This document shows, in pieces, positions 24,417 through 44,226 of a stretch of DNA of 64,000 nt (position 1 is the first letter of the stretch; each line of letters begins with the position of its first letter). Origin of the DNA: an uncultured Granulosicoccaceae bacterium (lineage in GTDB: Bacteria > Pseudomonadota > Gammaproteobacteria > Granulosicoccales > Granulosicoccaceae); assembly GCA_938007995.1 (NCBI GenBank), contig CALLLW010000036.1, forward strand, positions 1 to 64,000, in the 5' to 3' direction. The notes beneath the pieces are model-generated. The model worked only from the letters and a program-made list of their open reading frames with translations, was not told the origin of the DNA and ran no database searches. Both the position numbers and the translations under genes were made by a program.

Positions 24417-24944
24417 TCAGCCGGGCTGCTTTGCGCCCTTTAGATAGTGCGGCAATCCCGCGACAGTTAGCACTACGTTGTCACAGAGTCCGGCGAGTTC
24501 CTGATGTAATAGTCCCGCTTCATCGCAGAATTGCCTGGTCAGCTCACCCATTGGTACGATGCCCATGCTGGTTTCGTTACTCACCAGAATAACCGGCCCG
24601 CGGGATTGTCGAATCGACTCTATCAATTCAGTTTTCAGCTGTTGCAGCAGCTGGTTATTCTGCTGCATTAATAAGTTAGTCAGCCAGAGTGTCAAGCAAT
24701 CTACCAGTACGCATGATTGCTCAGTGGCGTGCAATTTGATCATTCGGCCAAGATGAACAGGCTCTTCTACAACCTGCCATTCTACGGGGCGGGATTTTTT
24801 ATGATGCTCGATTCGTTGTTGCATCTCAGCATCGCCTGCTGAGGCAGTGGCAATGTATACAATAGGCATTTTGCAGTCGGTCGCAAGTGACTCTGCCAAT
24901 CGACTCTTACCGGATTTGATACCGCCAAGCACCAGCGTATTCAT
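24417..24944 (-). CDS. cobU: Adenosylcobinamide kinase / adenosylcobinamide-phosphate guanylyltransferase
   Basis: A 175 aa enzyme that activates (adenosyl)cobinamide to the GDP form used by CobS. GGIKSGKSRLAE at residues 7-18 is the P-loop, IATASAGDAEMQQRI and DCLTLWLTNLL are conserved CobU segments. Last gene of the minus-strand B12 run, 20 bp after btuD. Confidence 0.93.
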   Translation of the reverse strand: MNTLVLGGIKSGKSRLAESLATDCKMPIVYIATASAGDAEMQQRIEHHKKSRPVEWQVVEEPVHLGRMIKLHATEQSCVLVDCLTLWLTNLLMQQNNQLLQQLKTELIESIRQSRGPVILVSNETSMGIVPMGELTRQFCDEAGLLHQELAGLCDNVVLTVAGLPHYLKGAKQPG

Positions 24945-24964: not shown

Positions 24965-25738
24965 TCAGAGCTCACGGACCGGAACAATATAAGGCACTTC
25001 ATCACCGCCCGTTGCCACCTCGACCCCGTACACTTGTCTGAGGTTATCCCGACTGAGAACAGTTGCAGGTTTGCCTTCTGCAACAATTTTTCCTTCATGC
25101 ATCAGGTACAGGCGATCACAAAATCGGGAGGCAAGTGATAGATCATGCAGCACTACCAGACAGGCTTTATCTTTCGTTGCAAAGTTTCGCAGTAAGTGCA
25201 TGGTTTGCAATTGATGTTTAAGATCAAGGGCTGCAATCGGCTCATCTGCCAATAACACCTGAGGATCTGAGGCTATTGCTCTGGCGAGTAGCATACGGGT
25301 ACGTTCACCACCGGATAACGTCGTTGCATCCTGTAGACGCAGCGCTTCACAATCAGTCAGTGCAATCGCATTATCGATTGCACGCTGATCCTCTGCTGAC
25401 AATCTTTGCCATGCACTTAAGTGCGGACGCCTGCCTAACGATACCACCCGCTCGACGGTTAACGGCCAGTTAACCGGGCCACTCTGGGCGACCCAGGCAA
25501 GCAAACGGCTTCTTTGTGCTACCGGAATTTTTTTTATATCGCGCTGATCAAGAGTGACGCTACCGGCATTACAGTCATCAAGGCCAGCAAGTAGATTAAG
25601 CAATGTTGATTTACCCGCACCATTCGGCCCGACCAGACCCACCAGCTCACCGGCATTAAGCGACACAGAAACTTCGTTCACCAATGATCTGTTTGATCGA
25701 ACATAAGTCACAGCAGAGGATTGCAATAGTATGGTCAC
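24965..25738 (-). CDS. btuD: Cobalamin ABC transporter ATPase
   Basis: A 257 aa FepC/BtuD-type ATPase: Walker A GPNGAGKST (about 36-44), signature LSGGERTR, Walker B VLLADEPIAALD, switch His in VVLHDLS. GTG start overlapping the btuC stop by 4 bp, so the two are translationally coupled. Confidence 0.92.
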   Translation of the reverse strand: MTILLQSSAVTYVRSNRSLVNEVSVSLNAGELVGLVGPNGAGKSTLLNLLAGLDDCNAGSVTLDQRDIKKIPVAQRSRLLAWVAQSGPVNWPLTVERVVSLGRRPHLSAWQRLSAEDQRAIDNAIALTDCEALRLQDATTLSGGERTRMLLARAIASDPQVLLADEPIAALDLKHQLQTMHLLRNFATKDKACLVVLHDLSLASRFCDRLYLMHEGKIVAEGKPATVLSRDNLRQVYGVEVATGGDEVPYIVPVREL

Positions 25739-26748
25739 AGATACTCTCTTCTACTTTTTACAATCAGATGCAAAAAGAAGGGCGCCCCAACAATTGCTGT
25801 TAGCACTCCTACTCGCAACGGTGAATCTGTGGGTATCAGCCTGACGCCGATGTCAGCTGCCAGCAGCATACAGGCACCACCAAGGGCCGACACTGGTAAT
25901 AGTCTTCCAGGCTCATGTGATACAAACGGCCTGAGCAGATGCGGCACTACCAGCCCGATAAATCCAATCATGCCGACTGTTGCGACCGACGCACCAACTG
26001 CCAGTGACACTGCAATAAACACACGCCACCTGAGTCGACCCGGATTAACCCCCATACTTTGTGCCGTGCGCTCACCCAGGGTGAGCGCATCGAGCTGACC
26101 ACCGACACCTGCAAGCATTGCCCAGCCAATTAGTGTGGTAGGTAACATGACCCAGAAATCCCGCATACTGCGATCAGTGATATCACCCAGCGTCCACAGC
26201 ACCAGCTCTCTCACTGCAAACGGACTAGGTGCGAGATTTAGCAGCAATGACATACCGGCTGTAGCAAGTGCGTTGATGGCGACACCGGCCAGTATTAGTG
26301 TAGTGATAGAGGCATCTCTGCCGGCCAGTACGTACACCAGTACCGTTGCGAGCAATGCGCCAGTCATTCCGGCTATTGGCAATATAAAAGGCGATATCAA
26401 ACTATTGCCAAAGTACAGCACCATCACAGCGAATAACGCTGCACCGCTGGCACTGCCAACAAGGCCGGGGCTTGCCAGTGGGTTACGCAATAACCCCTGC
26501 ATGGCAGCGCCACACACGCCCAGTGTGGCACCCGCTAACAGTGCAATTAATGCTCGTGGCAGTCTGATCTGATTAAGGATCACTGCGTAAACAGAGTCAG
26601 TGCCACTGAGAGAGTCTTTTAGCGCCGTGGTTAATGGCAGAGCATCACGACCAATGGCAACAGAGGCCATAAACAGAATCACACAGGCAGTACACAACAC
26701 ACCATATAGTTGCTTCTGGGTGATGGTGTTCAGGCTGCTATCGTTCAT
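25735..26748 (-). CDS. btuC: Cobalamin ABC transporter permease
   Basis: A 337 aa FecCD/BtuC-type permease with about ten hydrophobic segments. RLPRALIALLAGATLGVCGAAMQGLLRNPLASPGLVG-type segment near residues 63-98 and GFIGLVVPHLLRPF near 260 are family signatures. Overlaps btuF by 4 bp. The B12 assignment rests on the riboswitch-led locus rather than on the protein alone. Confidence 0.9.
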   Translation of the reverse strand: MNDSSLNTITQKQLYGVLCTACVILFMASVAIGRDALPLTTALKDSLSGTDSVYAVILNQIRLPRALIALLAGATLGVCGAAMQGLLRNPLASPGLVGSASGAALFAVMVLYFGNSLISPFILPIAGMTGALLATVLVYVLAGRDASITTLILAGVAINALATAGMSLLLNLAPSPFAVRELVLWTLGDITDRSMRDFWVMLPTTLIGWAMLAGVGGQLDALTLGERTAQSMGVNPGRLRWRVFIAVSLAVGASVATVGMIGFIGLVVPHLLRPFVSHEPGRLLPVSALGGACMLLAADIGVRLIPTDSPLRVGVLTAIVGAPFFLHLIVKSRREYL

Positions 26749-27608
26749 GAACCGGACATTAGCTTTTGTCTTTCCGATTGCAGCTGTTCAATCACATCAA
26801 TGGTCCATGGTCCGCCACAGACGGTCATTCTACTCGGAACATGAATGATATGCGGATTAACCCCTGCATCAAGCAATGCCGGATGCTGACTCATTGCCTG
26901 CGCTCTCGACCAGGTGCCGGGGCTATAAGGTGACTCTATTAACGCATCCGGCTGTAATGCGATGATTGCCTCCAGTGACAGTTTTCCGTAGCTTTCAATA
27001 CCTGCCACTGAGGCGGCGTTTTGAAAACCGGCGGCTTCCATCATTTCACCACGCAACGATAACTTACCACTGGTGTATCCATTCGGGTCAAAAACCGCAG
27101 CGATAGGTTTTGGTTCCCGGGGTGACTGAATCGATGATAATTTTTCACGTAGTTGCGTGACCACATCAACACCGCGTTGCGGATGCCCGACCCACTCGGC
27201 CACATCCAGAATATTCTGAAATACGGTTTCTATATTATTCGCAATTGGCAGAGTCTGAATTTGCAGGCCGACTTCCTGCAACATTGCCACGGTATGCTGG
27301 CTTGAATACTGACCGACGATCACAACATCGGGTTGCAAGCCGAAGATCTGTTCTGCATGACCTTCATTGACCGGATACTCGCGAGCTGTTTCAAAGTAAT
27401 AAGAGCCAGCCTCTTCGTGCGAAAGATTCGATAAGGATCGAATCTGATCACTGTCTGCCAGTAACAAAACCAGTTGATCTGCGCACAGGTTGATTGAAGC
27501 TACCGCTATCTGCTCTTTGGCCGGAACTTGTTCCGGGAATGCTAACAGCATGGCCATTGCCACAGATACGGCGCTGGTAAAAATTCGGGAGCGAGGTGCC
27601 ATAGTCAT
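26745..27608 (-). CDS. btuF: Periplasmic cobalamin-binding protein
   Basis: A 287 aa periplasmic binding protein of the BtuF/FepB (helical-backbone) type. A signal peptide covers about residues 1-30 (ends VPAKEQ). ASINLCADQLVLLLADSDQIRSLS and QPDVVIVGQYSS are typical. ATG 27608 or 27602. It follows a strong hairpin downstream of the lipoprotein gene and begins the btuFCD-cobU block. Confidence 0.88.
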   Translation of the reverse strand: MTMAPRSRIFTSAVSVAMAMLLAFPEQVPAKEQIAVASINLCADQLVLLLADSDQIRSLSNLSHEEAGSYYFETAREYPVNEGHAEQIFGLQPDVVIVGQYSSQHTVAMLQEVGLQIQTLPIANNIETVFQNILDVAEWVGHPQRGVDVVTQLREKLSSIQSPREPKPIAAVFDPNGYTSGKLSLRGEMMEAAGFQNAASVAGIESYGKLSLEAIIALQPDALIESPYSPGTWSRAQAMSQHPALLDAGVNPHIIHVPSRMTVCGGPWTIDVIEQLQSERQKLMSGS

Positions 27609-27677: not shown

Positions 27678-29108
27678 CTACTCGGTAAACGCAATACTTG
27701 AAGGGTTCAATGTAGTCGCGATGCTGTCTGTAACCACCGAGTTATCAGCCGGGTTCAATACAACCACTCTCGGTGATTCCGGATCACCCACTGCAACCCA
27801 AAGATTACCTGCCGGTCCTACAGCAATATCGCGCACATCAACGTCACTTAAACCCGCCACACCGAGCGCGTCAATTCTGCCGGTTATCGGGTTGAACTGC
27901 TCTAAAGAGGAGACACCAAAAGTTGATGAGGTCACAAGATAACCCACTGAAGCGCTGGCAATTTCAACGCCCGCCATACGACCAGTGCCGTCGTTGTCAT
28001 CAATAAGTTGTGAGGCAGAGAAGTCGGTCGTATCCACAGTCACCAATCCGCCTGTCAAAGCCGGAGGACGTGAACCGTCAAACGCACCAAAGTCACCCTG
28101 CGCCGAGATAAACAAGGTATCACTGGCAGCATCAACCGAGATATCTGACGGATTAAAAGCCGGCAGCTCTATACCCGGCAGCGTGTCGTTGGTGCCTGTG
28201 TCAATCTCGGTATCCGTATTGGTATCGATCACTGCAACAAAGCCCGGCTGGGTTGGTGCAAACGCTTCAAGCCGCTGCATAACAATAAACAAGCGATCAC
28301 CAACAATAGCGCCGCGAGTTGCCTCTGGCACACCATCGGCGTCATAGATGCTCAGATCGATCTCACCGATTTTAAAGTCTGCCGGATCTGTAACCGATGG
28401 GTTAACAATCCACATAATCGGGCTGCCATAGCGCAACAGATACGCTTTGTCTTCGTTCAGAAAAATAAGATCGTGCGGGTTGCTGGATGCTTCTTCAGTG
28501 TCTGAGTTGGTAGAGACTTCATATAGAGGCGTTGTTGGATCATCAATGGAGTAAGCCGCGATGCTGTCAGACATAAATCGACGAATAACAAAGTACTTGT
28601 CACCGAAGGCACGAACAATCGTGTCCGATACACCAGGATTCAAACTACCGTCAACAGTAAACGGATCTTCCACACCAACAAGATCAACTACCGAGCTGCT
28701 GAAGCCTGAGTCAATAGAGGCGATCACTGCTCTGGCTGACGCTGAAACACCTGAGTCAGTCTCTGCACCTGTGTCACCGCCAGTGCCTGTTTCACCATCA
28801 CCACCGGTATCGCCTGTGCCGGTATCACCACCAGAATCTGTTTCGCCACCTGTATCTGCATCACCATCAGTGTCTGCATCACCATCAGTGCCTGCATCAC
28901 CATCAGTGTCTGTATCACCATCAGTGCCAGTATCACCACCATCAGTGTCTGCGCCACCATCAGCATCAGTCCCTGTATCGGTCCCACTATCAAGGCTGCT
29001 GGTATCTGTATCATCGACTGGGGTGTCGTCATCGTCACTGCCGCAGGCAGACAGTGCGAGCGTTACAGCAAATAACGGTGCGATTAGAGTTGATCGATTT
29101 AGTTTCAC
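27678..29108 (-). CDS. Beta-propeller-like lipoprotein, BtuG-like by context
   Basis: A 476 aa protein. A lipoprotein signal ends in LSACG (Cys about 22), then comes a ~110-residue acidic low-complexity linker of Asp/Thr/Gly hexads (DTDGDA, GGDTGT), then about 330 residues of repeated strands: SSVVDLVGVEDPFTVDG, DKYFVIRRF, DTLFISAQGDFG, GNLWVAVGDPESPRVVVLNP, DNSVVTDSI. These look like YVTN-type beta-propeller blades. It lies 33 bp after btuB in the riboswitch-led operon. In Bacteroides BtuG, a propeller lipoprotein, sits on BtuB and hands it cobalamin; the same arrangement suggests this protein is its counterpart on the cell surface. Homology to BtuG is not established here. Confidence 0.7.
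   Translation of the reverse strand: MKLNRSTLIAPLFAVTLALSACGSDDDDTPVDDTDTSSLDSGTDTGTDADGGADTDGGDTGTDGDTDTDGDAGTDGDADTDGDADTGGETDSGGDTGTGDTGGDGETGTGGDTGAETDSGVSASARAVIASIDSGFSSSVVDLVGVEDPFTVDGSLNPGVSDTIVRAFGDKYFVIRRFMSDSIAAYSIDDPTTPLYEVSTNSDTEEASSNPHDLIFLNEDKAYLLRYGSPIMWIVNPSVTDPADFKIGEIDLSIYDADGVPEATRGAIVGDRLFIVMQRLEAFAPTQPGFVAVIDTNTDTEIDTGTNDTLPGIELPAFNPSDISVDAASDTLFISAQGDFGAFDGSRPPALTGGLVTVDTTDFSASQLIDDNDGTGRMAGVEIASASVGYLVTSSTFGVSSLEQFNPITGRIDALGVAGLSDVDVRDIAVGPAGNLWVAVGDPESPRVVVLNPADNSVVTDSIATTLNPSSIAFTE
28749..28991 (-). repeat. 18-bp repeats coding the Asp/Thr/Gly linker
   Basis: Units such as ATCACCATCAGTGTCTGC and variants recur in frame (18 bp, six codons), coding DTDGDA-like hexads in the linker of the lipoprotein gene. 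Slippage here would lengthen or shorten the linker without a frameshift. Confidence 0.8.
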
Positions 29109-29141
29109 TTTGATTCCAGAAGTTAAAAAAGAGATAAGGGC

Positions 29142-31235
29142 TTACTGCAAAGTTTGCGGTTGGTAAAACAGACTGATAAAACCGGCTCTCCCCGGACGGG
29201 GATAGCCGTTGAAATCTTCATAGTTCTGATTGGTCAGGTTGTTTAATTCAAAATCTACCCGCCAGTCATTCCAGTACCTACTAAAGCTGACACCATGAAT
29301 GCGCTGATCGGCTGCCACCAGAAAATTACCGGTATCAAAAAACCGATCGGAGTTTAATTTGAATTCGTATTCAAGTTTCCAGCGATTATTTTTCCAGCCG
29401 GCGGTGACAGCTGCATCAACCGCTGCTTCTCCGGGTAGCTGCTTGCCTGTTTGCCCGCGTATATTGGATCGGTTTTCAGTATCCTGAACAGTAACTGCAG
29501 CATTTACACTGAAACCGGTTCGCCACAATACACTTGCCGCCAGCTCTACGCCACGTGCGGTAGCGCGTGAGAGGTTCTGCGATGTGCCGACACCCTGGGC
29601 ATTAAAGGTGCGCACGATTAAGTCATCCCGGTTGCTGCGAAAGTAAGTGGCACTGAAGAGTCGCTCAACAGGCTGCGACGGGTGCGAGTTCCACTTAAAA
29701 CCAAAATCGAGATTGGTCGATGATTCATCCTGCAAAGAAGAGTTACCAACGAACAAGCCCTGACTACCAAACAATTCAAAAAACGAAGGTACTCGTTTTT
29801 GCAGCGAGGCATTGCCCAGCATCACCAGACGATCACTTAAGGTATGACTAAAGCCCAACTGCGGCACAACTGCCGTGGTTGAAAAATCTGCGCGAGCCTG
29901 CTCGAAGTTTTCAATGTCATATTCATCACTTACTGCAAAGCCCACGGCACTGGCCGATATCAGCGTTGCCCCGTTGTTGAAATACCGATTGCCCTGAACG
30001 CTGAAATCAGTTCTTAGCCTTTGAGCGTTGGTTGCGTTTACCTGGCGCAATTCATTAAAAGCGCTGAACTCTTCACCACGCAGTTTAAGGCTTAGTGACA
30101 CACTGTTATCGCTATTGATTTTTTCCCAATAACCACGCGCCCCGAGTACTGATGTATCAGAATCAATCAGCTGACTTGATGTACCAATACTGGCGTTGCG
30201 ATCATCAAACAATTCGTTTTTAAGTGACCCGTTCACTTCCCACAGCGAAGACCAGCCGTTGCCCGTTGCGGTGTTTCGCAATGTCGAGCGCCACTGAGCG
30301 TTGGTACTGTCAAGCTGTGCGGCACCACCCTCTGTATTGCGCCAGTTAGCCACACCCTGCGCGCGATCATAAAACTGCAGCGCATGCTCAAGCTTTGCAT
30401 TACCGCGCAATCGATGGCCGGTTTTAACAAAGCCGGATAAGCTGCGGGTCTGACCATTGTTGCGCCGCTCTCGATTGTCATCAGCGGTGTTAAAGCTGGT
30501 GCCATTGTCGTTCAGGAACGGAAAGTCATTCTCACTTTGCCGGAATGACAGTGAGGCGACAAAGGTCTGATCTTCAAGCAGATTAACCGGGCCACGAAAG
30601 GCTGCAGAGAAACGCGAAGAACCAAAAGAACCAACGCCTGCCAGAAAACTGCTTACCGACGTACTGGAGCCACGCGCTGAAATAATATTAACTGCACCGC
30701 CAATCGCTGTATTACCTAGCTGAACCGGTACCGTCCCTTTATATACTTCGACTTTCTCAGCCTGTAGTAGCTCGATGTCACTGAAGTTGACCGCACCACC
30801 AGAGGCTTCATTGAGCAAAATGCCATCAAGATAAACATTGACCTGTTCAGCACTGGAACCGCGCAGAGATATACTGCTGTGAGACCCGAAGCCGCCACTT
30901 TCCCTGAACTGCACACCACTTTCAGTTGCCACCACTTCGGCAAGTGAGGTGCCTGCCTGTTGCAGTTGTTCTTTTTCAATGACTTCGCGAAAACCGGTGA
31001 ACTCACCCGCTGCTGTGTCACCGATTTCAAATGGCACAGGGTTATTAACCGCTGGCCCGGGTGCAGTACTTTCAGCCCCGGTACTGTCTTCGTCAGTGAT
31101 AACAATGGGACCAAGCTGAGCAGTCACTCCTGGCGCTACCAGCAGCAGGCACAAATGTACAGCAAGCGCACCGACGCGCCTTGCTACAACCCATTGATCT
31201 GGATAACACTGTTTCAAAACCAGCCCGCTCGGCAA
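29142..31235 (-). CDS. btuB: TonB-dependent cobalamin receptor
   Basis: A 697 aa outer-membrane receptor. A signal peptide (hydrophobic about 22-38, ending VTAQ) is followed by a TonB-box-like GPIVITDEDS, a plug domain (about 80-190; SISLRGSSAEQVNVYLDGILLNEASGG and GTVPVQLGNTAIGGAVNI) and a beta-barrel ending in SLFYQPQTLQ. The frame starts at a TTG (31233-31235) with a weak upstream site; a later TTG is possible. Directly downstream of a cobalamin riboswitch, which fixes its ligand as a corrinoid. Confidence 0.92.
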   Translation of the reverse strand: MPSGLVLKQCYPDQWVVARRVGALAVHLCLLLVAPGVTAQLGPIVITDEDSTGAESTAPGPAVNNPVPFEIGDTAAGEFTGFREVIEKEQLQQAGTSLAEVVATESGVQFRESGGFGSHSSISLRGSSAEQVNVYLDGILLNEASGGAVNFSDIELLQAEKVEVYKGTVPVQLGNTAIGGAVNIISARGSSTSVSSFLAGVGSFGSSRFSAAFRGPVNLLEDQTFVASLSFRQSENDFPFLNDNGTSFNTADDNRERRNNGQTRSLSGFVKTGHRLRGNAKLEHALQFYDRAQGVANWRNTEGGAAQLDSTNAQWRSTLRNTATGNGWSSLWEVNGSLKNELFDDRNASIGTSSQLIDSDTSVLGARGYWEKINSDNSVSLSLKLRGEEFSAFNELRQVNATNAQRLRTDFSVQGNRYFNNGATLISASAVGFAVSDEYDIENFEQARADFSTTAVVPQLGFSHTLSDRLVMLGNASLQKRVPSFFELFGSQGLFVGNSSLQDESSTNLDFGFKWNSHPSQPVERLFSATYFRSNRDDLIVRTFNAQGVGTSQNLSRATARGVELAASVLWRTGFSVNAAVTVQDTENRSNIRGQTGKQLPGEAAVDAAVTAGWKNNRWKLEYEFKLNSDRFFDTGNFLVAADQRIHGVSFSRYWNDWRVDFELNNLTNQNYEDFNGYPRPGRAGFISLFYQPQTLQ

Positions 31236-31315
31236 CGTCTTTTTGAGCAGGTGCGAAACAGAGGAACGGGAGTTCCCGCCGAAGCACCTCGCTCAGGCAG
31301 ACAGAATGTCATGTC

Positions 31316-31525
31316 ATCGGCGGATATCCTGACTCACGGGTCATCGCTGCTATCTCTGCCTTCCCGGCGACATATGCCAGTGGCTGGGCGGTCACAAAGC
31401 CCGTTGAGATAGTGCTCTCCGTTCACAGTTGCGAGGGCAGTCCGGGATTTTGCCAGTGTCTGCCAATGACTCTCATTGGCGAAGGCAGCACCCGGTTCCC
31501 CACGACCAAACCATCTGGTCGCCCT
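31316..31525 (-). ncRNA. Cobalamin riboswitch
   Basis: Minus-strand landmarks of the B12 aptamer occur in order: GGGGAACCGGGTG (near 31489-31501), GACACTGGC, CCCGGACTGCCCTCGCAACTG (about 31424-31447), CCAGCCACTGGC, GCCGGGAAGGC, GATGACCCGTGAGTCAGGATATCCGCC (the B12 box, about 31316-31345). It ends about 80 bases before the btuB start and should turn off btuB and its downstream genes when cobalamin is plentiful. Boundaries of the outer stem are estimated. Confidence 0.93.
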
Positions 31526-31716
31526 GTTAAGGACCGAAGCGTGAATGATGACTGAAACCACCGCCAGTGGCAACTGGTGAACCACCCACAGCAGCCTGAA
31601 AGCGGCTGTAATGTTGCAGCAATCGCTCTGTAGCGCCAATTCAATTCAAAATGTGAATTACATCCTGCCGATACATGCGCTAGCATTCGCGGTTCTTCTC
31701 CAACGAGCCACCTTTG

Positions 31717-32775
31717 ATGCAGGGTTCCATTTCAACTCGATCGCGCACACCCGGCCCACTATTCAGTGCTGCGTTTAGCAAAGATATGCAAACAGCCGGT
31801 GCAATACTCGATCAGAAAACCAAACCACCCGGCTCACTCGGCACTGTTGAAACTATCGCCATGCAAATCAGTGCGATACAAAAAACACTGAAGCCGGACG
31901 TAGACTCCGCACTGGCCATTTTATTTGCCGCAGATCACGGCGTGATGGAAGAATCAGTCAGTGCTTATCCACAGGCAGTAACAAGACAGATGCTACTCAA
32001 CTTTGCTTCCGGTGGATCTGCTGCAAATGTTTTCTGCAACGCCAATGCAACCGCCCTTGAAGTCATTAACGTTGGTGTTATTGGTGATGCAGTAGATGGC
32101 ATCGTGCATGACAAAGTTAGCGATGGAACAGCTAACATGATGAAACAGGCTGCTATGAGTAGCGAGCAGTTAGAGCAGGCGTTAGCAGCTGGACAAAATG
32201 CCGTGCAACGCGCTGCTAACAATAATATTAAGCTGATTGCATTAGGAGAGATGGGTATAGGCAATACAACATCGGCAGCCGCTATTGTGTCTGCGCTGGG
32301 TGATATTCCTGCTGTCGACAGTGTCGGCCCTGGCACCGGCCTTGATCAAAAAGGCCTGGCACATAAGGTATCAATAGTTAATCAAATACTCACCCGTCAC
32401 TCACAACGTGATCCGGAATCGGTTCTCAAAAACATGGGCGGGCTCGAAATAGCCGCTTTATGTGGTGCCATGCTTGAAGCTTGCAAACATAAAATCACCG
32501 TTATTGTTGATGGCTATATCGTCACAGCGGCAGCACTGTGCGCTGTTGGCATGAACCCCGTAGTCAGAGAACACTTAGTGTTCGCACATCGATCAGCAGA
32601 GCCCGGGCACATTGCAGCTCTAGCACAGCTTAATGCTCGCCCGCTACTGGATCTTGGTCTGCGACTTGGTGAGGGCTCCGGTGCCATTCTGGCGATACCG
32701 CTGGTGCGAAGTGCCGTTGCCATGCTCAACAATATGGCAACTTTTGAAGATGCCGGTGTTGACGGTGCTATCTAG
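31717..32775 (+). CDS. cobT: Nicotinate-nucleotide-dimethylbenzimidazole phosphoribosyltransferase
   Basis: A 352 aa enzyme making alpha-ribazole phosphate, the lower-ligand precursor of cobalamin. KTKPPGSLGTVE near residues 35-46, FAADHGVMEESVSAYPQAVT, EMGIGNTTSAAA and LGEGSGAILA near the C-terminus (with the catalytic Glu) are conserved. ATG 31717 preferred over TTG 31714. Divergent from the riboswitch operon, coupled to cobS 20 bp downstream. Confidence 0.95.
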   Translation: MQGSISTRSRTPGPLFSAAFSKDMQTAGAILDQKTKPPGSLGTVETIAMQISAIQKTLKPDVDSALAILFAADHGVMEESVSAYPQAVTRQMLLNFASGGSAANVFCNANATALEVINVGVIGDAVDGIVHDKVSDGTANMMKQAAMSSEQLEQALAAGQNAVQRAANNNIKLIALGEMGIGNTTSAAAIVSALGDIPAVDSVGPGTGLDQKGLAHKVSIVNQILTRHSQRDPESVLKNMGGLEIAALCGAMLEACKHKITVIVDGYIVTAAALCAVGMNPVVREHLVFAHRSAEPGHIAALAQLNARPLLDLGLRLGEGSGAILAIPLVRSAVAMLNNMATFEDAGVDGAI

Positions 32776-32795: not shown

Positions 32796-33578
32796 ATGAA
32801 AATTGCAACACAGCTTAAACAAGCTCGCGACCGCTACTTTGTTGCACAAATGTTTCTCACTCGACTGCCATCGCCGGTCAAACTTGCATGGTCTGAATCT
32901 GAACTCGCACACAGCACTCCCTGGTTTGCAGTGGTGGGTGTTGTGGTTGGCAGCATTACAGCACTTGCCTTTTGGTTCGGCTTTACTTTCTGGTCACCAA
33001 TTATGGGCGCGGTATTCGCTGTGGCAGCCTCTATTTTTGTAACAGGTGCTTTTCATGAAGATGGCCTTGCCGACTCCGCCGATGGGCTGGGTGGTGCTTT
33101 TGAGATTGAAAAAAAACTAACTATCATGCGTGATAGCCGCATTGGCACCTATGGCAGTGTGGCACTCATACTTACGATTATCGCAAAAGTCAGTGCTATA
33201 TCTCAGTTGCCGCCCGAGACTGCAACAAGTGTATTGATTGGAGCACACATGCTGGGTCGATGGACGTCAGTGCCGTTAATTAAGTATAACAACTATGTGC
33301 GTGAACAAGGCACCGGCAAACCATTTGCAGCAATGGTGACAACACGCAACGTTATCTTTAGTTCGCTGTTTTCGATTCTTGTTAGCGCAGTGCTTTTTCA
33401 AGCCATCATGTTGTTCGTAATACCCACGATATTACTTTTTCTATGGCTGGCGCAATGGTATGTTAGAAGAAAAATCGGTGGTATTACCGGTGATATACTC
33501 GGCGCTATTAACTCACTGAGCGAGCTTCTGGTTTACCTGATTATGTCTTCAAGCTTTATAATCCACTTTTACAACTAA
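32796..33578 (+). CDS. cobS: Adenosylcobinamide-GDP ribazoletransferase
   Basis: A 260 aa membrane enzyme joining adenosylcobinamide-GDP with alpha-ribazole to complete cobalamin. FLTRLPSPV near residues 20-28 and FHEDGLADSADGLGGAF near 86-102 (metal-binding Asp cluster) are signatures; several hydrophobic segments follow. With CobU and CobT it closes nucleotide-loop assembly for salvaged cobinamide. Confidence 0.95.
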   Translation: MKIATQLKQARDRYFVAQMFLTRLPSPVKLAWSESELAHSTPWFAVVGVVVGSITALAFWFGFTFWSPIMGAVFAVAASIFVTGAFHEDGLADSADGLGGAFEIEKKLTIMRDSRIGTYGSVALILTIIAKVSAISQLPPETATSVLIGAHMLGRWTSVPLIKYNNYVREQGTGKPFAAMVTTRNVIFSSLFSILVSAVLFQAIMLFVIPTILLFLWLAQWYVRRKIGGITGDILGAINSLSELLVYLIMSSSFIIHFYN

Positions 33579-42560: not shown

Positions 42561-43922
42561 TTAACCGCGACGGTGGGACTCCGGAGGCTGATAACTTCGA
42601 ACGTTGGGACAAAAGCCGGTCTGGATATAATTAAATGCCGCACCGGTCAACGCGTCATTGATACTGTCTGTCGGGGCGAGAAAATCATCCACGACTTCGC
42701 AGGTTGGAATCAGACCACCCAGCACACTTTGATTTGCCCCGTTGGTAGTCAGAGAGCTCATTGCATGAAGTCGCTTGCCACAGAAGTCCTGTGCCACAGA
42801 GGTAAACGGCTTACCCTCAGTTCTTGAACCTATGACAACCACATCAATCAACGGTGAAAGCCCGTTGGTTAACGTTTCTGATGCCGATGCAGTGCTGCCG
42901 GTAGTCAGTACAACAAGGCGCGATAGCTCCAGGTTGGTCGCTTGCGGCTCAATGAAAAGATCCAGGTCAAACTGGCTGTATTTATCATTAAACACACGGC
43001 GTGAGTAGACTTCAGAAATAAACGAAGGCCCGGCAATCTGTGAAGCCAGCTGACGCGCAACTGCGGTGAATCCACCACCGTTATACCGCAGATCAAGTAT
43101 CAGTTCAGAGATACCGGCGTCGGCAAGAAACGCTACTGCATTGTCTATTTCAGCTGCGGTGGTGCCGCGAAACGCAGTCACCTGAAGATACCCGACTTCA
43201 TTGTTGGTTTGTTCGTAGGTGCCAAAAACCGGCACGGTAGATTCTGTATAGGTGGTTTTGGTAACGATGTAATCTGTCTCGGTAGAGACGCCGGATCGCA
43301 CGGTAAATATAGTGGTCAGCTCTTCGCCGGGCTCACCGACGATAAACTCCAGCCATTGCTCATCAGTGACTTCTGCAAGCGGTATCGAATTGATCGCCAG
43401 CAGTTCATCACCGCGCTGAATACCGGCCCGCTCCATCGGTGAGTTACCACTGATACTGGCGAAGTGTTGTCTGCCATCAGACGCCTGCTGTAGCCAGAAG
43501 CCAAATCGGGTTACGTTGCTGTTGGCAATCACGTCTTCGTCACTGACCTGATCCACCAGAGAACTGTAAATATCGGGAAAAACCCTTAAGTCTCTAACCA
43601 GCTGTTCCGGTGCATCATATTCATCCAGATTAAGCACCGGCACCTGATCGTAGTAGATGTAGGTATCACGCATGCGTTCATTTACCCAGCGATTGATTTC
43701 CTCCACACTACAGCTGGACCCAGCACCGTTGGCGACCAGCGATGGATTAGTTGCAGGTGAATTATCTGCGGCCTCATCATCGCCACCGGAGCCGCCACCA
43801 GAGCCGCCACTACAGGCAGTGAGCACGGCGGAAAGCAGGCAAGTGCCGACTATCCGGACAAGACTCACACCAGAATTGTTAGAGGCGAGCCTGCTACCGG
43901 AACTTTCAATAAGACGCATCAT
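42561..43922 (-). CDS. S41-family lipoprotein peptidase with PDZ domain
   Basis: A 453 aa protein from ATG 43922 (the frame opens at 44006, but only from here is there a signal peptide). LLSAVLTACSGGS is a lipobox with the Cys near residue 37, followed by a Gly/Ser linker. A PDZ-like region (SPMERAGIQRGDELLAINS, about 145-165) precedes the S41 catalytic core: LILDLRYNGGGF, TTGSTASASETLTNGL with the nucleophilic Ser and RTEGKPF with the Lys. Carboxy-terminal processing protease family, likely on the periplasmic side of a membrane. Confidence 0.9.
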   Translation of the reverse strand: MMRLIESSGSRLASNNSGVSLVRIVGTCLLSAVLTACSGGSGGGSGGDDEAADNSPATNPSLVANGAGSSCSVEEINRWVNERMRDTYIYYDQVPVLNLDEYDAPEQLVRDLRVFPDIYSSLVDQVSDEDVIANSNVTRFGFWLQQASDGRQHFASISGNSPMERAGIQRGDELLAINSIPLAEVTDEQWLEFIVGEPGEELTTIFTVRSGVSTETDYIVTKTTYTESTVPVFGTYEQTNNEVGYLQVTAFRGTTAAEIDNAVAFLADAGISELILDLRYNGGGFTAVARQLASQIAGPSFISEVYSRRVFNDKYSQFDLDLFIEPQATNLELSRLVVLTTGSTASASETLTNGLSPLIDVVVIGSRTEGKPFTSVAQDFCGKRLHAMSSLTTNGANQSVLGGLIPTCEVVDDFLAPTDSINDALTGAAFNYIQTGFCPNVRSYQPPESHRRG

Positions 43923-44226
43923 TGTGTAATCGCTTGCCTTTGGCTTTGTGCGGGGTATTGCCACGCTGGACAAGCCGCATCGGGTACAAGGAATGTACCA
44001 AAGCATGAGACTGACCGGACATCAGAGGGTAAACAATTGCAGCAATCACGCAAAGCACCACAGAACCGGCGCTGCCTGCCTTGCCTATGCGGCCTGCCTA
44101 TGCGGCCTATTTGTGTCGATTGCCTTGTGTCAATTGAACGGCAACCACTGGCAGTAACGATTCCCAGGCATTATTAGCCGGCATTGTTAACTGGCATCAC
44201 CCGCGCAGCTCATCACACTACCGGGG
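43923..44226. other. Intergenic region between lysS and the S41 gene
   Basis: Only a short direct duplication of GCCTATGCGGCCT (about 44083-44110) is seen. No promoter or gene can be supported. Confidence 0.3.

Follow-up and report, generated by a model that had tools for sequence, protein, structure and literature searches.

The window, a 64,000-nucleotide stretch of contig CALLLW010000036.1 from an uncultured Granulosicoccaceae bacterium (assembly GCA_938007995.1), carries on its reverse strand an operon headed by a cobalamin riboswitch, in which a gene for a BtuB-like TonB-dependent receptor is followed by a gene for a lipoprotein with a predicted propeller domain and by genes for vitamin B12 import and salvage (Table 1). 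Our subject is this lipoprotein, which we compare with BtuG of Bacteroides, and its probable partnership with the receptor. An initial annotation of this DNA had described a riboswitch-led unit with a TonB receptor; a match to the Rfam cobalamin riboswitch model bears this out, and the riboswitch extends 28 bp beyond the end of the segment annotated then. The 33-bp gap reported between the receptor and lipoprotein genes also proved exact, counted from TAA to GTG. The CobT- and CobS-like genes lie beyond the riboswitch and point away from the operon; the initial annotation had missed them, as it had the btuF-, btuC-, btuD- and cobU-like genes.

Fold of the lipoprotein and identity of its receptor

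The AlphaFold2 model of the C-terminal domain, built with 30 homologs, has a predicted local distance difference test (pLDDT) score of 92.6 and a predicted template modeling (pTM) score of 0.92. By our reading of the strand list, it consists of seven four-stranded blades, the last of which is closed by the C-terminal strand together with the first three strands. A Foldseek search against 350,542 PDB chains, the result of which is a ranking by fold, placed BtuG1, BtuG2 and BtuG3 of Bacteroides, most of them with bound cobalamin, at all of ranks 1 to 15 (E values 7e-15 to 2e-12; template modeling (TM) scores of 0.72 to 0.75 by query and up to 0.82 by target; 13 to 15% identity). Below them came XusB, close behind, and an archaeal YVTN surface protein, AztD, YncE and NirF. 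The initial annotation had seen propeller-like repeats and had likened the protein to BtuG, a reading that could have failed on a different fold; structure prediction returned a seven-bladed propeller with confidence, and every one of its nearest solved structures is a BtuG. This reading is further supported by its agreement with the operon, the riboswitch, the co-occurrence of the two genes and the modeled docking.

Several results weigh against it. A phmmer search with the single sequence against all PDB chains, BtuG1 to BtuG3 included, gave no match up to an E value of 10. A 30-member profile reached BtuG with an E value of 8.8e-4, mostly through blade 2 (motif NPxxLvFvsdeKAYlxrygsxxxwivNP), level with an unrelated histidine-kinase propeller. 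With a wider profile (A5), the top PDB scores went to histidine-kinase propellers, so that sequence alone provides no evidence for BtuG. The propeller faces, tested by loop class, did not differ in conservation (p 0.83 to 0.91), and the net charge of the propeller domain (−37 over residues 126 to 476) may in part reflect a marine-type proteome. The published sequence threshold for BtuG (BlastP 1e-10) was not reached, as measured with HMMER instead of BlastP, and we therefore do not file the lipoprotein as a BtuG orthologue. By sequence it is a distant relative of BtuG, a putative BtuG-like lid rather than an orthologue, and it most likely functions like BtuG. Pfam and NCBIfam name no family for it; DUF5074 was considered and rejected, as in this genome it is only part of a large protein elsewhere.

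The receptor starts with a signal peptide, and a TonB-box-like sequence, GPIVIT, lies at the start of the mature protein. One family-model result also counts against our reading: the TonB-B12 model TIGR01779 matches at 1.5e-36 and 126.2 bits, far below its equivalog cut-off of 599.7. A siderophore receptor model scores the receptor equally well. In the joint model described below, the best PDB matches of the receptor are BtuB3 (of BtuB3G3), which is its nearest solved structure, XusA (of XusAB) as second best, PqqU and BtuB1 (of BtuB1G1), with E. coli BtuB behind them by small margins. We call the receptor BtuB-like because of the riboswitch, the operon and the structure.

Since the two genes share a frame, they can be read as one chain for modeling. 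We read the DNA through the TAA with code table 6, as a modeling device that carries no claim about translation, and modeled the resulting 1146 residues from a joint alignment of 68 rows, 18 of them paired likewise. The joint model has a pTM of 0.80, and nearly all of the 150 residues (13%) with pLDDT below 50 belong to the BtuB N-terminus and the linker region. For two confident domains in an undefined relative position, we estimate from the lengths that a pTM near 0.55 to 0.6 would be expected; the higher value therefore indicates a confident relative placement, and the model suggests that receptor and lipoprotein dock. On the other side of the balance, the value of 0.80 is that of the true pair alone, and it specifies neither the docking side nor the contact residues.

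The likeness to BtuG (PDB 8BMX, 8OKV, 8P97 and 3DSM) thus comprises a seven-bladed propeller lipoprotein encoded beside btuB under a cobalamin riboswitch, negative charge, an acidic run after the lipidated cysteine and, for lipoprotein and receptor both, the closest solved structures. The differences are the low identity over the fold without a significant single-sequence match, the long acidic repeat linker, the other bacterial division and, in one branch of the family, C-terminal anchors. A propeller protein encoded beside a TonB receptor is also found in a gammaproteobacterium in the case of YncE, which is periplasmic and nonlipidated. In E. coli, its partner PqqU (YncD) is among the best matches of our receptor and YncE itself among those of the propeller, but the TM scores of YncE (0.54 to 0.56) are lower than those of BtuG, and the system handles pyrroloquinoline quinone instead of B12. 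Lipoproteins also assist TonB receptors in Proteobacteria in the case of TbpB, LbpB and HpuA of Neisseria. These three differ in having another fold, protein ligands and Slam-dependent export (Slam is discussed in PMC5080379). XusB and XusA of Bacteroides likewise combine a propeller lipoprotein with a TonB receptor; however, XusB has a siderophore ligand, belongs to the DUF4374 family and has no cobalamin riboswitch (PMC13142918).

Single-domain searches gave no match in viral contigs and one distant match in plasmids, a XusB-like protein of Phocaeicola. On a Phocaeicola massiliensis contig labeled as a plasmid (L021:26-6858; OY726067.1), genes resembling those for a nonribosomal peptide synthetase and a phosphopantetheinyl transferase precede those for a TonB receptor and for a propeller lipoprotein with XusB as its best PDB match (8.7e-8); together they may provide a siderophore made by the bacterium itself and a lidded receptor for it. 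Besides the BtuB-linked lipoprotein, one Granulosicoccaceae relative has a second, diverged propeller lipoprotein (L051:2202-3440; G021:C248), judged by eye to be nearer to the XusB-like protein of Phocaeicola, on a contig that stops before the upstream neighbor.

Table 1. Features of the cobalamin-riboswitch locus, in window coordinates
Feature	Position	Strand	Evidence or remark
Cobalamin riboswitch, head of the operon	31302..31553	-	RF00174, 85.7 bits, E 1e-19, full model 1-189
BtuB-like TonB-dependent receptor, 697 aa	29142..31235	-	PF07715 (Plug) and PF00593 (beta-barrel)
33-bp spacer between receptor TAA and lipoprotein GTG; both genes share one frame	29109..29141	-	
BtuG-like propeller lipoprotein, 476 aa, GTG start at 29108	27678..29108	-	Open reading frame
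Lipoprotein signal peptide, residues 1-21, lipobox LSA/C	29046..29108	-	Sequence
Cys22 and acidic D/G/T-rich linker, residues 22-125	28734..29045	-	Degenerate 18-bp repeats, 28778-28992
Predicted seven-bladed beta-propeller domain, residues 126-476	27681..28733	-	AlphaFold2, Foldseek
BtuF-like periplasmic binding protein	26745..27608	-	PF01497 4.2e-20; PRK03379 BtuF 1e-7, below cut-off
BtuC-like permease (FecCD)	25735..26748	-	PF01032 7.9e-86
BtuD-like ATPase	24965..25738	-	PF00005 1.7e-30
CobU-like enzyme (cobamide salvage)	24417..24944	-	By-eye assignment; position kept in relatives
CobT-like enzyme, divergent	31714..32775	+	By-eye assignment; position kept in relatives
CobS-like enzyme, divergent	32796..33578	+	By-eye assignment; position kept in relatives

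Linkage and distribution of the receptor-lipoprotein pair

Homologs of the lipoprotein are present in 30 of 57 related genomes. In all relatives whose upstream sequence was inspected, the ortholog lies directly behind BtuB on the same strand, and a cobalamin riboswitch heads the operon wherever the contig extends far enough. Among seven relatives without the lipoprotein, five also have no BtuB (at an E value of 1e-40), and in the other two the contig runs out within BtuB or 421 bases past it.

A scan of 84,980 genomes, in which contigs were searched with profile A2, yielded 108 relatives, 80 of which were kept. The gammaproteobacterial ones span several orders and belong to Granulosicoccaceae, Nevskiaceae (Solimonas, Nevskia, Panacagrimonas, Sinimarinibacterium and Hydrocarboniphaga), Alcanivorax, Marinobacter, Colwellia, Pseudoalteromonas and Paraglaciecola; beyond this class, there are many in Desulfobacterota and one in a metagenome-assembled genome (MAG) of Bdellovibrionales. 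Cultured carriers include Marinobacter salexigens, Colwellia hornerae, Pseudoalteromonas phenolica and Solimonas terrae. A BtuB-like receptor adjoins the propeller gene in 78 of 78 loci with flanks, directly upstream and on the same strand in 75 (the other two kept loci, at contig ends, lie outside this count). In distant loci the receptor matches go down to 23 to 30% identity, and for the eight distant receptors that we scanned, TonB-B12/BtuB models ranked first or near the top of the NCBIfam matches.

The riboswitch was counted in 58 loci outside the close relatives, four of which were too short. It is present at 50 of the remaining 54, 48 by automatic count and two by inspection: in L113 it precedes the true receptor start, and in L131 it heads an operon that starts with btuC/btuD. 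At two loci, the genes for receptor and propeller are in convergent orientation, with a separate riboswitch for each (L081, 5586-5710 and 9752-9883; L108, 976-1088 and 4916-5029). On the Bdellovibrionales contig (L122), an AdoCbl-II riboswitch (936-1022) leads the propeller gene. The setting by which BtuG is recognized, a gene beside btuB in a cobalamin-riboswitch operon, is thus also that of our lipoprotein. The family is patchy, with 22 carriers among the 369 genomes of a class sample and one among the 398 of a phylum sample, the latter being the window's own genome. The receptor-lipoprotein pair is far from unique, and the association is real and old.

Linker and membrane anchor

Like BtuG, the lipoprotein has a lipobox, with Cys22 directly after a signal peptide ending in LSA. 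The following linker (residues 23 to 125; 103 residues) contains 31 Asp, 27 Gly and 22 Thr, with 33% Asp plus Glu, and is predicted to be disordered (pLDDT below 50 at residues 667 to 788 of the joint receptor-lipoprotein model). Tandem Repeats Finder detected a period of 18 bp (5.9 copies, 82% match, 28855-28963) and overlapping arrays of 33, 36 and 57 bp across 28778-28992. The initial annotation had foreseen a linker of about 110 residues made of 18-bp units and a domain starting at residue 140; the long acidic linker and its repeat unit hold, whereas its length had to be corrected to 103 residues and the domain start to near residue 126. Its proposal that linker length can vary is also confirmed. 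The tether from the cysteine to the aligned domain start measures about 15 to 114 residues across the family, and in the nearest relative, whose domain is 93% identical, it is shorter by some 30 residues (about 70, versus about 100 here), showing that linker length varies between species. Its further suggestion that the linker would extend past surface polysaccharide found no support here; a flexible linker also helps Lol trafficking (PMC11784454).

The acidic stretch after Cys22, C-G-SDDDD, contains SDDDD, which is the consensus of the lipoprotein export signal of B. fragilis, a signal defined for Bacteroidetes (PMC5080379). A similar acidic run occurs in one other of about 10 plausible lipoproteins in the 432 kb of this genome that we sampled, a number too small for a conclusion on an acidic export signal. 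Among the other lipoproteins of this genome, the one at L159:9696-10361 (G000:C17) has an acidic run directly after its cysteine (CDSDDDDATDAA) and an acidic linker, and possibly belongs to the same sorting class as the BtuG-like lipoprotein. Close to it, at L159:5003-9516, lie adjacent SMC-like and toprim-like genes that by eye resemble JetC and JetD of the Wadjet plasmid-defense system. The window itself encodes a second predicted lipoprotein (42563-44006, reverse strand; 453 residues), in which a Gly/Ser-rich stretch follows the cysteine (CSGGSGGGSGGD).

A lipobox is present in 66 of the 87 family members placed in our tree and in none of the 21 sequences of a branch that is mainly Desulfobacterota. 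One branch with 98% support in the Shimodaira-Hasegawa-like approximate likelihood ratio test separates the lipobox-bearing from the other sequences in this unrooted tree, made by a quick method. Twelve of the 21 sequences (L065, L069, L093, L098, L104, L107, L110, L111, L114, L117, L126 and L131) combine an ordinary signal peptide with an acidic or Gly-rich tail that bears a Cys-Phe-Ile motif, in some cases with a hydrophobic helix and basic residues after it. NCBIfam models recognize a CFI-box putative sorting motif above cut-off in L117 and CFI-box-CTERM in L111 (5.6e-31), with L098 just below cut-off. In Desulfobacterota the anchor thus appears to have moved to a C-terminal CFI-box cysteine tag. 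The comparable MYXO-CTERM tag is cleaved at the C terminus and mediates surface anchoring (PMC11980579). By this analogy, C-terminal cysteine tags argue, with moderate and indirect force, that the propeller acts on the cell surface; for the CFI-box itself, we came across no experimental test in the literature.

Proposed function and alternatives

We consider it probable that the lipoprotein serves the BtuB-like receptor as a lid that captures B12. Our evidence is computational throughout: it covers the riboswitch, the gene order, the fold and its nearest structural relatives, the coupling to BtuB and riboswitch across the family, the predicted docking and the B12 dependence of the genome, and from it we infer the ligand, the surface location and the hand-over. 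At low intracellular B12 the riboswitch would allow joint synthesis of the receptor, the lipoprotein, BtuF, BtuC, BtuD and CobU. A lipid on Cys22 would anchor the lipoprotein to the outer membrane and the linker, long and acidic, would give the propeller mobility; the negatively charged propeller may capture cobamides outside the cell, dock onto the receptor mouth and pass the ligand on. Uptake would then be powered by TonB and import completed by BtuFCD, supplying the B12-dependent methionine synthase MetH. Capture, docking, hand-over and TonB import are established for BtuBG of Bacteroides thetaiotaomicron (PMC6143338, PMC10404256).

The host genome is a MAG (91% complete, 4.69 Mb) in which MetH is present (1760 bits). 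Neither the B12-independent enzyme MetE (best score, 19.6 bits) nor CobI/CbiL (63 of 163 bits) was found above cut-off in this MAG, from which genes could be missing as the assembly is incomplete. This combination makes it very probable that the host relies on imported B12 to make methionine. Searches for Slam-type export carried no information: Slam (PF04575) had no match in this genome and none in the controls either, and for SlipAM, searched with no positive control, this genome likewise gave no match. The genome encodes a type II secretion secretin (592 bits), and it is speculation that type II secretion exports the folded lipoprotein.

The strongest competing explanation, although an unlikely one, is that the propeller remains in the periplasm, with a linker that merely serves Lol trafficking and spans that compartment. 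Most proteobacterial outer-membrane lipoproteins do face the periplasm (PMC5080379), and a flexible linker after the lipidated cysteine also aids Lol trafficking (PMC11784454). The Slam result fits this explanation, within the limit given above, as does the presence of several Desulfobacterota members with neither a lipobox nor a visible C-terminal tag. However, BtuG and XusB, which come closest in fold, act as lids at the cell surface (PMC10404256, PMC13142918), the C-terminal cysteine tags of the Desulfobacterota branch have their counterpart in the surface-anchoring MYXO-CTERM (PMC11980579), and a periplasmic binding protein, BtuF, is already encoded next door.

It is improbable that the lipoprotein is a receptor lid for some other ligand, such as a B12-binding protein, a particle-bound corrinoid, another metal chelate or, as for XusB, a siderophore. 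XusB-type propellers of the same architecture bind siderophores (PMC13142918), and the receptor scores equally with siderophore receptor and BtuB models, but the cobalamin riboswitches, including the separate ones before split-off propeller genes and the AdoCbl-II riboswitch in L122, together with the BtuFCD and CobUTS neighbors, tie the propeller protein to cobamides. Least probable is an enzyme or cofactor handler of lactonase, YncE or NirF type that modifies corrinoids outside the cytoplasm: single family members weakly match Lactonase or SGL models and the tetrapyrrole handler NirF is among the Foldseek matches, but lactonase- and NirF-type matches rank well below BtuG, and we identified no catalytic motif of those families, a residue-by-residue check not having been made.

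A B12-capturing lid thus remains our preferred reading, and it bears on the distribution of such systems. In 313 gut genomes, Wexler et al. detected BtuG homologs in Bacteroidetes alone at a BlastP threshold of 1e-10 (PMC6143338), which is consistent with the weak sequence similarity of the lipoprotein described here. According to Abellon-Ruiz et al., lipoprotein-capped TonB transporters seem to be exclusive to Bacteroidetes (PMC10404256), and both papers connect this restriction with competition in the gut (PMC6143338, PMC10404256). A search of the open-access literature, with subscription papers and preprints outside its scope, turned up no account of a BtuG-like protein from Proteobacteria. 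On balance, we favor the view that lidded B12 transporters are widespread and old in Gammaproteobacteria, Desulfobacterota and a Bdellovibrionales MAG, and that the anchor has switched between an N-terminal cysteine with an acidic linker and a C-terminal CFI-box while function was kept. If this is true, a family in environmental Proteobacteria that shares fold, partner and riboswitch with BtuG would make the gut-specific explanation less convincing and suggest that a high-affinity B12 catcher also benefits scavengers outside the gut, and the question would arise of how such lipoproteins get to the surface in Gammaproteobacteria.

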